Of a stretch of DNA of 10,138 nucleotides, positions 2,893 to 9,100 are shown piece by piece. Every line of letters starts with the position of its first letter. The stretch's first letter is position 1. Origin of the DNA: an uncultured Rubrobacteraceae bacterium (lineage in GTDB: Bacteria; Actinomycetota; Rubrobacteria; Rubrobacterales; Rubrobacteraceae). The stretch is taken from positions 1 through 10,138 of the forward strand of contig CADCVI010000101.1 in NCBI GenBank assembly GCA_902806105.1, in the 5' to 3' direction. The position numbers were made by a program, and so were the translations under genes. A model generated the notes under the pieces. The model saw only the letters and a program-made list of their open reading frames with translations, was not told the origin of the DNA and made no database searches.

Positions 2893-3798
2893 GTGGCGAG
2901 GGGGACGCACGAGGCGCTGCCGGACGAGCGGAACGAGGACGTGCTCGTGTACATCAACGGCGAGTTCTACCCGAGGGCGGAGGCCAGGATCTCGGTCTTC
3001 GACTCCGGCTTCCTCGTCGGCGACGGCGTCTGGGAGGGCATCCGGCTGCACGACGGCACGCTCTCGCTCCTCGACCTCCACCTCGACCGCCTCTTCGAGG
3101 GCGCGAGGGCGATAGACCTCGACATCGGCATGACGCGAGGGGAGATCGCCGAGGCGCTCCAGAAAACCGTGGATAGAAACGGCATGACCACCGGCGTCCA
3201 CCTGCGCCTGATGGTTACCCGCGGCGACAAGAAGACGCCCTCTCAGGACCCAAGGCTCGCGACCGGCGGCCCGAACGTCGTCATCATCGCCGAGCACAAG
3301 ACGGCGGACCCTGGGGTGCGGGCTCAGGGCATAAGGCTCTTCACCTCGACCGTCCGCCGGCCGCCTCCCGACACGCTGGATCAGCGCCTCAACTGCCACA
3401 GCAAGCTCCACGAGGTGGTCGCGCTCATACAGGCCCTCAAGGCCGGGGCCGACGAGGCCCTCATGCTCGACCCGACCGGGGCCGTGGCGACGTGCAACGC
3501 GACCAATTTCTTTATCGTCCGCCGGGGCGAGGTCTGGACCTCCACCGGCCACTACAGCCTCAACGGCATCACGCGCAGGATGATCGTCGAGCTCTGCCGC
3601 GCCGAGGGCATCCCGGTCTTCGAGCGAGCCTTCTCCCTCACCGACGTCTACGGCGCGGACGAGGCCTTCGTCACCGGCACCTTCGGCGGCCTCACCCCGG
3701 TCGTGGAGGTCGACGGGCGGAGGATCGGGGACGGCGAACCCGGCGCGACCACCGCCCGCCTCACCGATCTGTACGGAGCCCTGATCTCCGGTGCCTGA
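2893..3798 (+). CDS. Class IV aminotransferase-fold protein (BCAT/D-amino acid transaminase family) with an atypical PLP site
   Basis: A 301-residue fold-type IV protein. Family hallmarks are VYINGEFYPRAEARISVFDS (19-38), GDGVWEGIR (43-51), HLDRLF (63-68), GVHLRLMVTRG (101-111), GADEALMLD (185-193), LNGITRRM (223-230) and phosphate-binding TGTFGGLTPV (261-270). Two PLP contacts look altered. The pyridine-contacting Glu position reads Thr200 (VATCNATN). The Lys normally 32-34 residues before it is replaced around R165-LNC-168, with the only nearby Lys at 171. The start is GTG 2893, behind GGAGAGGG about 5 bases upstream. The stop overlaps the sulfotransferase start by 8 bases, so the two are translationally coupled. 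From memory, plant branched-chain-aminotransferase-like proteins fuse this domain with the same sulfotransferase domain. The substrate is unknown; calling it a branched-chain aminotransferase would be an over-reading. Confidence 0.85.
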   Translation: MARGTHEALPDERNEDVLVYINGEFYPRAEARISVFDSGFLVGDGVWEGIRLHDGTLSLLDLHLDRLFEGARAIDLDIGMTRGEIAEALQKTVDRNGMTTGVHLRLMVTRGDKKTPSQDPRLATGGPNVVIIAEHKTADPGVRAQGIRLFTSTVRRPPPDTLDQRLNCHSKLHEVVALIQALKAGADEALMLDPTGAVATCNATNFFIVRRGEVWTSTGHYSLNGITRRMIVELCRAEGIPVFERAFSLTDVYGADEAFVTGTFGGLTPVVEVDGRRIGDGEPGATTARLTDLYGALISGA

Positions 3799-4537
3799 TC
3801 TCACCGACTGCCTCAGGCTCTCCGTCTGGTCCGGCCCCCGCAACGTCTCGACAGCACTGATGTACTCCTTCCGGGAGCGCCCCGATACCCGCGTGATAGA
3901 CGAACCCCTCTACGGCCACTACCTGAAGACGACGAACGCCGACCATCCCGGGGCCGAAGAGGTCACCGGGGCGATGGATACCGATGGGGAGCGAGTCGTC
4001 CGCGACGTCATCCTGGGGCCATGCGAGAAGCCCGTCCTCTTCTTCAAGAACATGGCGCACCACCTCGCCGGGCTCGACCGGGCTTTCCTCGGGGAGATCA
4101 CGAACGTCCTCCTGACGCGAGACCCGCGAGAGATGCTGCCCTCCCTCGCCGAGCAACTCCCCTCCCCCACCCTCCGCGACACCGGCCTCGTCGAGCAGGT
4201 CGAGATTCTCGAAACAGCGCTCGGGAACGGCAAGCCCCCAGTGGTCCTCGATGCCCGCGCGCTGCTCCTCGACCCGGCGGACATCCTGAGACGAGCCTGC
4301 GAGAACCTGGATATCCCCTTCTACGAGGCGATGCTCCGGTGGCCCGCAGGACCCAAGCCCGAGGACGGCGTGTGGGCGAGGCACTGGTACCGCAACGTGC
4401 ACGCCTCGACGGGCTTCGGCGAGTACCGGCCGAAGCCCGAACCGTTCCCCGAGGAGCTGGAGCCCCTGCTAAGGGAGTGCCTGCCGCTCTACGAAAAGCT
4501 GCGCCGGCACGCCATCACGACAGCCGGCGCTCGGTAG
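3791..4537 (+). CDS. P-loop sulfotransferase-like protein paired with the aminotransferase
   Basis: A 248-residue cytoplasmic protein of the sulfotransferase (P-loop NTPase-like) fold. The 5'-phosphosulfate loop reads SVWSGPRNVSTALM (11-24); the 3'-phosphate-binding part reads LLTRDPREMLPSL (107-119), both as expected for PAPS users. Candidate catalytic residues are Lys86 and His90/His91 (FFKNMAHH). The C-terminal block GPKPEDGVW..WYRNVHASTGF (187-209) is characteristic of this subfamily. The start is GTG 3791, 8 bases inside the aminotransferase gene, with no strong Shine-Dalgarno of its own, so translation depends on coupling. Its partner and overlap suggest the two proteins act on one substrate, perhaps an amino or hydroxy compound that is sulfonated. 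The reaction has not been established as far as I know, and activity is inferred from fold only. Confidence 0.82.
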   Translation: MPDLTDCLRLSVWSGPRNVSTALMYSFRERPDTRVIDEPLYGHYLKTTNADHPGAEEVTGAMDTDGERVVRDVILGPCEKPVLFFKNMAHHLAGLDRAFLGEITNVLLTRDPREMLPSLAEQLPSPTLRDTGLVEQVEILETALGNGKPPVVLDARALLLDPADILRRACENLDIPFYEAMLRWPAGPKPEDGVWARHWYRNVHASTGFGEYRPKPEPFPEELEPLLRECLPLYEKLRRHAITTAGAR

Positions 4538-4545
4538 GGCTCCCC

Positions 4546-5646
4546 TCAGACCAGGCTCGCTAGCCTCTTGACGCCCTCGTCGATCTGCTCGGGCGGGACG
4601 GCGCAGAACGGGAGGCGGACGAACCGGTCGCCGGAGACCGCCTCGCCGGTCATCGGGTCGGGGAAGAAGGCGGCGCCGGGGGTGAGGACGAGGTCCTGCT
4701 CCTTGGCCCGGCCGACAAGGTTGTCGGTGTTGGCATCCTCCGGGAGCATCATGCTAACGAAGAAGCCGCCGTCCGGGACGAAAAGCTGGGCGCCCGAGAA
4801 CTCGCGGCGCACTGCGTTCGCCATCGCCTCCCAGCGCGGGCGGTAGACCTCCTTGAGGCGCTCGATGTTCGGGGCGAGCCAGTCGCGCCTCAGGTACTCG
4901 GCGACGGCGGCCTGGGTCGGCAGGACCGGGGAGAGATACGTATCCTCGCCGAGGCTCGTGACCGTCTTGATCAGCTCCTCCGGCGCTATAACGAAGCCGA
5001 CGCGGATGCCGGGGCTCAGGAGCTTGCTGAACGAGCTCATCGTGATGACCCTGTTCGGGCTGATCTCACGCAGCAGCGGCAGGTCCTCACCAGCGTATCG
5101 GAGCTTGCGGTACGGGATGTCCTCGATCACCCAGAAGTCCTTCTCCTCGGCGAGCTCGACGACCTGGCGGCGCTTCTCCAGCGAGAGCGTCGCCCCGGCC
5201 GGGTTCTGGAAGTCCGGCACCAGGTACACGAACGCCGGCTTCTCGGCCTCGACAGCCTCCCTCAGCTTCTCCACGTTCACCCCGTCATCGTCCAACGGGA
5301 TGCCCACGGCGCGCGCGCCGCGCCTGCGGAACGTCTTGATCGCGCGGTCGAAGCTCGGCTGCTCCGTGTAGACCACGCCGCCCGGGCGGATCATGTACGC
5401 CGAGATCAGATCCTGAAGCTGCAACGACCCGTTCCCGACCATGACGTTCGACGTCTCGACCCCATACTCCTTCGCCAGCTCCTCGCGCAGCGGCCCGTAC
5501 CCCGGCTGCTGCCCGTACTGGAGTATGACGCCGGGATCGTTCTGCAACGCCGCGTCCAGACACTCCCTGAACTGGTCAGTCGGAAACGACTCGGGCGGCG
5601 GCACGCCACGCGTAAATACGATCTTGGCCTGCGCGGTCTCGGTCAT
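4546..5646 (-). CDS. PLP-dependent class I/II aminotransferase (2-aminoadipate transaminase/MocR-like)
   Basis: A 366-residue fold-type I aminotransferase that transfers an amino group between an amino acid and a 2-oxo acid. Seen: QYGQQPGYGPLREELAKEYG (43-62), GNGSLQLQDL (71-80), YLVPDFQNPAGAT (141-153, Asn148), VIEDIPYRKLRY (173-184, Asp176 to the pyridine nitrogen, Tyr179), SSFSKLLSPGIRVGF (204-218, Schiff-base Lys208) and RFVRLPF (341-347, substrate-carboxylate Arg344). This is the LysN/2-aminoadipate group and the catalytic half of MocR regulators, but no HTH domain precedes it. ATG 5646 is preceded by GGGGAGAG about 8 bases upstream and by a plausible promoter. Its stop lies 8 bases from the stop of the convergent sulfotransferase gene with no terminator in between, so read-through could give overlapping transcripts. 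Substrate specificity cannot be set from sequence. Confidence 0.9.
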   Translation of the reverse strand: MTETAQAKIVFTRGVPPPESFPTDQFRECLDAALQNDPGVILQYGQQPGYGPLREELAKEYGVETSNVMVGNGSLQLQDLISAYMIRPGGVVYTEQPSFDRAIKTFRRRGARAVGIPLDDDGVNVEKLREAVEAEKPAFVYLVPDFQNPAGATLSLEKRRQVVELAEEKDFWVIEDIPYRKLRYAGEDLPLLREISPNRVITMSSFSKLLSPGIRVGFVIAPEELIKTVTSLGEDTYLSPVLPTQAAVAEYLRRDWLAPNIERLKEVYRPRWEAMANAVRREFSGAQLFVPDGGFFVSMMLPEDANTDNLVGRAKEQDLVLTPGAAFFPDPMTGEAVSGDRFVRLPFCAVPPEQIDEGVKRLASLV

Positions 5647-5677
5647 GGAAAGACTCTCCCCTGTAGCCTGCGAATCG

Positions 5678-5707
5678 GTATAACCCTACCGCTCCATCAT
5701 ACGACAA
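5678..5707 (-). promoter_or_regulatory. Promoter of the class I/II aminotransferase gene
   Basis: Minus strand TTGTCG (5702-5707), an 18-base spacer, then TTATAC (5678-5683). The start point would be near 5671, giving a leader of about 25 bases that contains the GGGGAGAG ribosome site before ATG 5646. Confidence 0.45.
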
Positions 5708-5770
5708 GGACGGAGCCGTTTTGGGAGAAGCCCACGCGCCGCAATCATCGACTACAGCCACTCAATCCTG

Positions 5771-5794
5771 CAAAAACAGGGACGGCTGGGTCCC
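5771..5794 (-). terminator. Intrinsic terminator of the small membrane-peptide gene
   Basis: On the minus strand, GGGAC (5790-5794), a 6-base loop, and GTCCC (5779-5783) are followed directly by TGTTTTTG (5771-5778). It lies 20 bases after the TAA of the 5814-5915 gene and has the right strand and order for a factor-independent terminator. The stem is short but pure G/C-rich; the T tract is unusual in this GC-rich window. Confidence 0.65.
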
Positions 5795-5813
5795 GTTCCG
5801 GCAAACAAGCTCC

Positions 5814-5915
5814 TTAAAGGCTGACGTTGCCCGTCATCAGCAATACCAGGACCACCAGCAGCGATATCAGAGTCGCAATTCCCCAGACGAGTTTGACCAT
5901 ACTTCCTCCGTTCAC
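5814..5915 (-). CDS. Tiny single-span membrane peptide (28 or 33 residues)
   Basis: From ATG 5900 the frame gives 28 residues ending at TAA 5814-5816. The N-terminus is MVKLVWG, the middle ATLISLLVVLVLLM is an uninterrupted hydrophobic helix, and the tail is TGNVSL; one Lys near the start suggests the N-terminus stays in the cytoplasm. Five codons upstream is an in-frame GTG (5915) adding VNGGS. Both starts have a ribosome site: AGGAGG 5 bases before the GTG and GGAGG 4 bases before the ATG. A hairpin (5927-5952) abuts the first site and an intrinsic terminator (5771-5794) follows the stop, so this looks like a complete transcription unit. I do not recognise a family. Possible roles are a membrane-complex accessory peptide, a stress peptide, or a type I toxin-like peptide. 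None is shown by the sequence. Confidence 0.6.
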   Translation of the reverse strand: MNGGSMVKLVWGIATLISLLVVLVLLMTGNVSL

Positions 5916-5926
5916 TATCTCCTCCT

Positions 5927-5952
5927 GGCTCGACGACCGGGTCGACCGAGCC
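5927..5952 (-). promoter_or_regulatory. 5' hairpin directly upstream of the small-peptide ribosome site
   Basis: A 26-base imperfect palindrome: outer arms GGCTCG/CGAGCC (6 bp), a small internal asymmetry, then 4 more pairs (CGAC/GTCG) closing on a 3-base loop. On the minus strand its 3' arm ends exactly where AGGAGG begins (5921-5926), so folding could gate access to the first start, or it could be the end of the dnaE transcript (there is no T tract). Confidence 0.45.
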
Positions 5953-6025
5953 CCGAAGGTACCATCTGGCCGAACGGACGCCAACCGGCCTCATCGATCA
6001 GTTGTAAGGTCTTCGAGCACCCGGG

Positions 6026-6078
6026 GGCCGGAGTCGACTCCTGGCCGCGGGAACCTGCGGGTGAAACACGGTTCCGCG
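6026..6078. repeat. Two adjacent inverted repeats in the dnaE-to-small-peptide gap
   Basis: The first is a perfect 12-bp palindrome GGAGTCGACTCC (6030-6041) extended by GGCC arms with one bulged base (6026-6046). The second pairs GGAACC (6050-6055) with GGTTCC (6070-6075) and extends by three more pairs past a bulged base (6046-6048 with 6076-6078). Neither is followed by a T run on either strand, so they are not standard terminators. They could be a structured 3' end of the dnaE mRNA, part of a leader, or protein-binding sites. Confidence 0.45.
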
Positions 6079-6163
6079 CCGCCCCCGAAAACCTGTGCCA
6101 CAAGGAAGGCGCCCGAGCCGTAAGGACGGCGGACGGACACCTTCACCTCTCCAGAGAGCGCCC

Positions 6164-9100
6164 CTACCCGACCTGCTCCATGGCCGCCTCTTCCGGTGCT
6201 GCGCGCCTAGTCTGGCCCCGCCGGATGGTGCTTATGCAGCGGGGGCCGAGGATCTGCTTGAGCTCGGCGTGGAGGTCTGAGGAGTCGTCGACACCCGCGA
6301 TCTGCTCCTCCAGCACCCCGTCGCCCGAGACGAGAAACAGCGGGCTTCCGCCGGAGTGCTGCCCGATAATCTTGAAGGCCTCCCTAGCCTTCTGGCGCGA
6401 GAGCCCGACGAACTCCTCGGCGTAGAGGTACAAAGGATCGGGGCCGGGTTCGAGGTGCAGCTCTTCTAGCTCCAGCGCCACTACGCGCGGGATGCCTTCC
6501 TTGCGCTCCACGCGCCCCTTGACCTTCAGGATGGCGTCCTCGCGCACGCAGTCGGCGCACTTGGCGAAGACCCTCGGGAAGACCATGACCTCCGCGAGAC
6601 CCCGCGTGTCGTCGAGCTGGAGCATCGCCATCACGTCGCCCTTGCGCGTCGTGTTGCGCCGCACGCTCGTCGCGAGGCCGCCGACCCACACGACAGCCCC
6701 GTCGCGGCAGTGGTCGAGGTCGGAGACCGTGGTGTCGATGTGCCTCTTGAGCTTGTGGGCCACCGGCCGCAGGGGATGGTCGGAGACGTAGAGGCCGAGG
6801 ACCTCTTTCTCCCACTCCAGCATCCCGCGCCGGTCGTCCTCGGCGGCGGAGATCACGGGCCGCGCCGGGGCGATCTCCGCCGCGTCGAACATGCAGAACT
6901 GGTCGGCGTTGGCTTCTTTCAGGCTCTTCTGCGCGAGCTCTACGGCCTTCTCGTGGACCTCGACCATCGCTACCCGCGAAGCCCCCGTCCAGTCGAAGGC
7001 ACCGCACTTTATTAGCGCCTCGAGGGTGCGCTTGTTGTAAGTCTTCGGGTCCACCCGCTCGCAGAAGTCGAAGATGTCCTCGAATGGTCCGGCTTCCCTG
7101 GCGGCGATGATGGCCTCGACGCAAGAGCTCCCGACGTTCTTGACGGCTGAGAGCCCGAACCGGATCGTCCCCCCGACCACGGTGAAGCGGTGACCGCTCT
7201 CGTTGACGTCGGGTGGCAGGACCTCGATGCTCATAGCCCGCGCCTCCGCGACGTACTGGGGCACCCTGTCCTTGGTGTTCATCACGCTGCTCATGAGCGC
7301 GGCCATGTACGCCTCGGGGTAGTGGGCCTTTAGGTAGCCGGTCTGGAACGCGAGGAAGGAGTAGCACGCCGAGTGGCTCTTGTTGAAGGAGTAGCCCCCG
7401 GCCTTCTCCATCCAGTTCCACAGCTCCTCGGCGATCTCCGAGGAGACCTCGCTCGCCGCGCACCCTTCCATGAACTTGTCCTTGAGCGTCGCCAGCATCT
7501 TGGCGTTCTTCTTGCCGATGGCCTTGCGGAGCGTGTCGGCCTCGCCGGGCGTGAAGCCGCCCAGGGTCTTTGAGATCTCCATGAGCTGCTCCTGGTAGGC
7601 GGCGACCCCGTAGGTCGGCTCCAGGATGTGCTTTACGCGCTCGTCGGGGTACTTCACGCTTTCGGGGTCGTGCTTGCCCCGCTTGAAGTTCGGGATGTAG
7701 TCCATCGGACCGGGGCGGTACAGCGCGTTCAGGGCCACGAGGTCGTCGAAGCGGTCCGGGCGGACCTCCTGGAGCATCCGCTGCATCCCACCGGACTCGA
7801 ACTGGAAGACCCCGAAGGTATCGCCCCGGGTGAAGAGCTTGAGCGTCTCCGCGTCGTCGAGCGGGATGCTGCCTATGTCCACCTCCTCGCCGGTAGTCTC
7901 CTTGATGGTGGCCAGCGTCTCCTCGATGACGTCGAGGTTGCGCAAGCCCAGGAAGTCCACCTTGAGGAGCCCGAGGGCCTCGACGTCGCTCATGGGGTGC
8001 TGGACCATGATCTCGCCCTTGGAGCCCTTCTGGAGCGGCACGATGTCCGTCAGGCTCTCCTCGGAGATCACGACGCCCGCGGCGTGGATGGAGGCGTGGC
8101 GCGAGAACCCCTCTATGTTGAACGCGATGTCCAGGATGTCCTTGGCCCCGGCGTTCCCATCGACAAACTGGAGCATCTCCCGCGCCGCCCCCGGATGCTT
8201 CTCGCCGGGGACGTAGATCCCGTCCTCGTTCTTCGCCAGCACGTCGCGCAGCCCCGTCCCGACGGGCTTCTCGGGGATAAACTTGGCGAGCTTGTCCGTC
8301 GCGTCGTAGGGATACTGGAAGACGCGCCCCGCGTCTCGTATCGCCGCGCGCGCCCCGAGCGTCCCGAAGGTGATGATCTGGGCGACGTGCTCGTGGCCGC
8401 CGTACTTCTCCGTGACGTAGCGCATCACCTCGGCGCGCCCGTGGACGGAGAAGTCGATGTCGACGTCGGGCATGTTTATGCGGTCGGGGTTCAGGAAGCG
8501 CTCGAAGAGCAGCGAGTACTTGAGGGGATCCAGGTCCGTGATCTCCAGCGCGTACGCCACGATGGACCCCGCCGCCGATCCGCGACCCGGCCCCACCGCT
8601 ATCTTCTGATCCTTCGCGTACTTCACGAAGTCCCACACGATCAGGAAGTAGTCCGCGAACCCCATCTTCCCGATGGTCGAGAGCTCGAACTCCAGCCTCT
8701 GGCGTACCTCGGGGCTCTCGGCCCGTGCCCCGTAGCGCAGCTTGAGCCCCTCCTCGCACCTCTCCAGGAGGTACTCGTCGGCCGTGTAGCCTTCGGGCTT
8801 GGGGAAGTTCGGCAGCCGGGTCTTCCCAAGCTCGATCCCCGGATCCTCGATGCTCTCGACGACCTTCAGGGTATTCGCAAGCGCGTCGGGGTGGTTCGGG
8901 AAGAGCCTCTCCATCTCCTCGACAGGCTTGACGTAGAACTCCTCGCCGGAGAAGCGCATGCGATTCGGGTCGGCGTGGAACTTGCCCGTCCCGATGCACA
9001 GCAGGACGTCGTGCATCCTCGCGTCGGAGCGCGAGGTGTAGTGGGAATCGTTCGTGGCGACGAGCGGGATGTGCGTGTCCTTGTGGAGCTTTATCAAGCC

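Follow-up and report, generated by a model that had tools for sequence, protein, structure and literature searches.

The region considered here lies within a window of 10,138 nucleotides, which is the whole stretch of DNA that was analysed and whose host is a Rubrobacter-like actinobacterium: the dnaE product is 95% identical, and the aminotransferase 96% identical, to the counterparts in Rubrobacter marinus. A gene for a 33-residue peptide occupies the minus strand of the interval that separates dnaE from a class I/II aminotransferase gene, and the features of the locus are as follows.

9733-6164: dnaE, one neighbour of the small gene
5927..5952, minus strand: GC-rich stem (11 pairs, one bulged base) that precedes the Shine-Dalgarno and whose function is doubtful
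5921..5926 (5926-5921), minus strand: AGGAGG, the strong Shine-Dalgarno of the GTG start, read from the sequence
5814..5915, minus strand: gene for the small membrane protein, with a GTG start, 33 codons and then the TAA; relatives found, and dN well below dS in two of three pairs
5898..5909, minus strand: GGAGG (5909-5905) and in-frame ATG (5900-5898, codon 6), probably incidental
5771..5794, minus strand: terminator-like stem of 5 pairs (5794-5779), then a T run
5646-4546: class I/II aminotransferase gene, the other neighbour of the small gene

Elsewhere in the window, the plus strand carries two genes that overlap by a few bases (2893-4537), one for a class IV aminotransferase and the other a Sulfotransfer_5 gene.

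The open frame, VNGGSMVKLVWGIATLISLLVVLVLLMTGNVSL, runs on the minus strand from GTG 5915-5913 to TAA 5816-5814. The Shine-Dalgarno, the GTG, the GGAGG, the ATG, the TAA and the stem with its T run all sit on this strand where an earlier note on this DNA had placed them, and the note's expectation that chance would rarely combine such features can be expressed in numbers. If an ORF is required to have a Shine-Dalgarno core, a length of 25-50 codons and a 19-residue stretch with a Kyte-Doolittle mean of at least 2.2, then the 33-residue frame (counted at both starts) is the sole ORF in the window that qualifies, and no such ORF is produced by dinucleotide shuffling of the whole window (0/200 shuffles). 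The best 19-residue stretch of the peptide has a mean of 2.81. That the gene has its own Shine-Dalgarno is supported by the AGGAGG before the GTG, and also by the presence of a Shine-Dalgarno at the matching start in G014 and G029, two genomes that carry relatives of the gene. It is plausible that the gene forms its own transcription unit, because in G029 it stands alone between opposite-strand genes.

The accessory elements, the hairpin and the terminator, are weaker than at first sight. The stem described as a 10-bp hairpin beside the first Shine-Dalgarno is present at 5952-5927, but its size is 11 pairs with one bulge, and its folding energy gives a z score of -1.56 in 60 nt and -1.91 in 32 nt. 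The suggestion that this hairpin is regulatory loses its footing, since the folding energy is not significant in any of the three loci (the z scores for G014 and G029 are -1.47 and +0.87), and a conserved 5' hairpin was rejected as unsupported, there being no similar fold in G029. The intrinsic terminator that had been proposed is in place as a terminator-like stem and T run, but it is only mildly unusual (z -1.81); scanning 2 kb for terminators gives 2 sites, compared to a shuffle mean of 0.9. A terminator shared by the three loci was rejected, as no run of four T can be seen by eye after the stop in the bases read from G014 and G029. A GGTA-containing stretch, also noticed by eye, precedes the start by 44-56 bases in each of the three loci (5967-5955 in the window, about 1643 in L035 and about 1434 in L036), and is a possible promoter element.

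In a tblastn-like search, six of 60 genomes related to R. marinus gave a match at E up to 10. Those in G014 (76% over the full 33 residues, E 2e-8) and G029 (61%, E 6e-4) are strong, and the other four were judged to be chance. When a profile is used to search 39 genomes of the R. marinus class, the same two genomes (2/39) match at E below 1e-10, with values of 5e-14 and 6e-16 (and 1e-16 in another profile search), and they stand out again in a phylum-wide draw of 396 genomes. Chance was judged to account for the weaker matches, both in the 39-genome set (8 of the 10 matching genomes, with E no better than 0.0047 and within frames of 251-504 aa) and in the phylum draw (22 of 24, best E 0.0013). 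A search of the class of G397 (399 genomes, a set without a positive control) came back empty. Because only two of the 39 class genomes carry the gene, it can be taken to be dispensable.

Among 5.8 billion proteins, a profile built from three sequences finds 62 matches, all at E up to 9e-7, and a second round, in which scoring was limited to the 7977 candidates with the most words in common, finds at least 81 proteins, all at E up to 6e-7, one of which is the window's own, leaving 80 relatives. One of these is named "BH18ACT10 ... soil metagenome", and the other named relatives are annotated as hypothetical protein. The 81 proteins reduce to 72 distinct cores of 32 columns without gaps, with the consensus MRSNKVTLIWGILTLISLLVVLVLMLLGVVSL. 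Four residues, W10, G11, T14 and S17, are invariant in all 72 cores, and several others are nearly so (K5, L13, L15 and G28 at 97%, L32 at 94% and S31 at 92%). The N-terminal half is the better conserved, while the C-terminal third is most variable at residues 25-27; a periodicity of conservation around the helix face is not significant over the 72 cores (permutation p 0.24).

No model in Pfam, NCBIfam, PHROGs or PADLOC was matched above its cut-off by the 5 query proteins used of 82, and the sub-threshold scores obtained were weak: the matches to Pfam SHP (E 0.043), NCBIfam YccF (E 0.058) and PHROG 27071 (E 0.019) were judged to be chance, as were the match of the longer reading P0048 to PADLOC Csx18 (E 0.0054) and the sole PDB match, to a designed protein (E 0.31). 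Phage and plasmid records gave no match, short queries having little power in such a search, and none was confirmed in viral contigs, so that, with the weak PHROG score as the only phage-related match, the peptide does not present itself as a phage-encoded small protein. The titles and abstract openings of the papers retrieved in literature searches on small membrane proteins, and on small proteins and sORFs of Rubrobacter, name no such peptide. The kind to which the peptide belongs, that of orphan small membrane proteins, is well known, and by its length of at most 50 residues and its one predicted hydrophobic helix the peptide has the build of a small single-pass membrane protein, a kind rather than a homologous family; the family itself appears to be undescribed, as far as the literature searched shows.

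The cores also bear on the start codon. The two starts, giving forms of 28 and 33 residues, had been regarded as a paired, designed feature, but the residue at the position of ATG 5900, residue 6, is K in 70 of the 72 distinct cores, R in one, and M only in the window, and the dual-start design was therefore rejected. The G014 homologue has no start codon at the matching position. The GGAGG with its ATG is probably incidental, because the in-frame GGAGG codes for the conserved N-G-G-S of the window's subfamily and no other core has Met6. For the latter reason the form of 28 residues is also not the ancestral one, though it could nevertheless be in use in the window's organism. The first core column holds M or V in 69 of the 72 cores, and the remaining three, which include the window, form a subfamily with M/V-NGGS that starts one residue earlier; the start is therefore fixed at GTG 5915. 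The database entry for the window's own protein (P0002) is called as 56 residues, from TTG 5984. Several of the relatives P0004-P0023 are called at 41-69 residues, with extra N-terminal residues that resemble translated upstream DNA and are similar among relatives, perhaps reflecting a conserved 5' region.

Selection was evaluated by Nei-Gojobori counting in the three pairs formed by the window, G014 and G029. The ratio dN/dS is about 0.27 for window-G014 (dS 0.79, dN 0.22, 33 codons), about 0.40 for window-G029 (dS 0.73, dN 0.29, 27 codons) and about 0.18 for G014-G029 (dS 0.89, dN 0.16, 27 codons), and Fisher tests on 27 codons give p values of 0.005, 0.11 and 0.0007, respectively. The synonymous/nonsynonymous check proposed in the earlier note thus reveals constraint in two of the three pairs, but the window-G029 pair is not significant alone. 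If the frame were not a gene, but a chance or decayed frame, its absence from R. marinus and from most genomes of the class would be readily understood, but 80 relatives of fixed length, dN below dS, and the failure of 200 shuffles to generate such an ORF make this explanation extremely improbable. Judged from these sequence comparisons, the frame is a conserved, selected ORF with a GTG start.

The earlier note had asked whether the peptide frame is conserved in relatives and whether its place downstream of dnaE is conserved with it. The frame is conserved (80 relatives at E below 1e-6), but the synteny fails: in R. marinus a 2.4-kb interval separates dnaE from the aminotransferase gene and holds a DUF7002 and an Excalibur protein instead of the peptide. 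In 5 of 30 dnaE loci examined (with flanks of up to 1.5 kb) the aminotransferase gene follows dnaE, in G032 after about 0.1 kb, and it is therefore the dnaE-aminotransferase order that is older, with a variable interval between the two genes. The five gaps contain no convincing copy of the peptide, and the G015 gap gives a weak tblastn match (E 0.006, 40% over 25). The variable interval extends over 5725-6125 in the window and 3570-6000 in L001; the alignment of the window with R. marinus and G010 stops near 6126-6160 and resumes at 5676-5725, and the content differs in each of the three genomes. An imperfect 14-base direct repeat (86%) at 5704-5717 and 6100-6113, near the borders of the interval, may be due to chance.

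In G014 the peptide gene lies between a convergent Usp gene and a same-strand gene without a Pfam match, and in G029 it is alone in 1.3 kb between sulfatase and GntR genes, both on the other strand, provided that the mechanical ORFs in between are not genes. Downstream, the window has an aminotransferase gene, G014 the convergent Usp gene and G029 the opposite-strand GntR gene, and no genes for a complex stand beside the peptide gene in any of the three loci. These different neighbours argue against both a leader peptide of a downstream gene and an operon-encoded subunit such as CydX or KdpF. The dS of dnaE is 0.67-0.73 against G014 and 0.68 against G029, and that of the peptide gene is similar (0.79-0.89 for window-G014 and 0.73 for window-G029), so the peptide gene has probably been diverging for about as long as dnaE, although the estimate is rough, with few sites. 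This similarity favours descent with loss and movement over recent horizontal transfer, which was rejected as unsupported.

A single transmembrane helix, at about residues 7-29, is predicted with confidence, and the AlphaFold2 model consists of one helix at residues 3-28 (mean pLDDT 87.8, pTM 0.47). By the positive-inside rule, residues of the K6/K8 type place the N-terminus inside, so the 33-residue protein would have a basic cytoplasmic N-terminus and a short, uncharged VSL end outside. The fixed length and the fixed W, G, T, S and G residues within the helix suggest specific protein contacts: these residues would pack against a larger membrane protein or against the peptide itself, and the partner's activity, stability or place would then change, as is the case with known small membrane proteins. 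No neighbour gene suggests a larger partner, and the model is also weakened by the lack of a significant helix face in the conservation, by the dispensability of the gene in most genomes of the class and by the window-G029 pair, which shows no selection by itself. For the peptide to be an N-in, single-pass, partner-binding modulator of this type, the chances are about even.

Among known systems, AcrZ binds the membrane part of AcrB (PMC7267776). AcrZ, KdpF and MgtS of E. coli share with the peptide a length of less than 50 residues, one helix and the lack of catalytic residues, but there is no sequence match to them and no adjacent partner gene, and among the genomes searched the peptide occurs in a single bacterial class. 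The basic N-terminus of the peptide is also a feature of Prli42 of Listeria, which is likewise tiny with one helix. The peptide has no Prli42-type match in Pfam or NCBIfam, libraries which presumably include a Prli42 model. Prli42 itself is described as conserved in Firmicutes, and as a membrane miniprotein that tethers the stressosome, anchoring a cytoplasmic complex (PMC9840623).

The same conservation could be shown by a toxin, which further weakens the partner-binding model. A type I toxin acting at the membrane, which would depolarize it when freed from an antisense or trans-acting RNA, is consistent with the small size, the single hydrophobic helix and the orphan intergenic place of the gene, as well as with its patchy occurrence and its three unrelated addresses. 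TimP of Salmonella is a small toxin of this sort at the membrane, kept in check by an sRNA (PMC7667032). The peptide resembles TimP and the type I toxins in being short, hydrophobic and encoded by an intergenic gene. It differs from these toxins in that no antisense RNA or sRNA was found, the window having no Rfam match and no sigma-70-pattern site on either strand at 5000-7000, and in that it has no multicopy pattern, G014 and G029 each having a single strong match; the lack of a match in phage and plasmid records, and of a confirmed one in viral contigs, also counts against a toxin. No type I toxin model is matched above its cut-off in Pfam or NCBIfam, which we take to hold such models. On balance a toxin is unlikely, but it is the main rival.

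A rather improbable alternative is a peptide with no fixed protein partner whose effect, under stress, is on the bulk properties of the membrane. The precedent is YohP of E. coli, a membrane protein of 27 residues encoded by an orphan gene, which is reported to change the fluidity and the potential of the membrane and to trigger the stringent response (PMC12719787). The peptide resembles YohP in size and build, in predicted membrane location and in being the product of an orphan gene, but there is no family match, and the fixed W, G, T and S positions disfavour a bulk-membrane effect because they suggest specific contacts. It is very unlikely that the peptide is the precursor of a secreted signalling peptide cut from the C-terminal end: the N-in hydrophobic helix with its conserved VSL end would suit such a role, but conservation is concentrated in the N-terminal half rather than at residues 25-27, and no transporter or receptor was found beside the gene in the three loci among the neighbours tested.

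With a consensus of 32-33 residues, four of them fixed, the family is easy to study by point mutation and crosslinking, and from the corrected start it is clear which frame to tag. The peptide adds a conserved micropeptide family that is named by none of the libraries searched, in a bacterial group with radiation and desiccation tolerance. As a speculative and rather improbable picture, the family may consist of old, lineage-specific orphan membrane micropeptides of Rubrobacter-like bacteria that have repeatedly been lost or shifted from one chromosomal site to another and that would regulate a membrane complex, possibly in stress tolerance. Genes as small as this one can survive over a divergence as long as that of dnaE while changing their chromosomal address.
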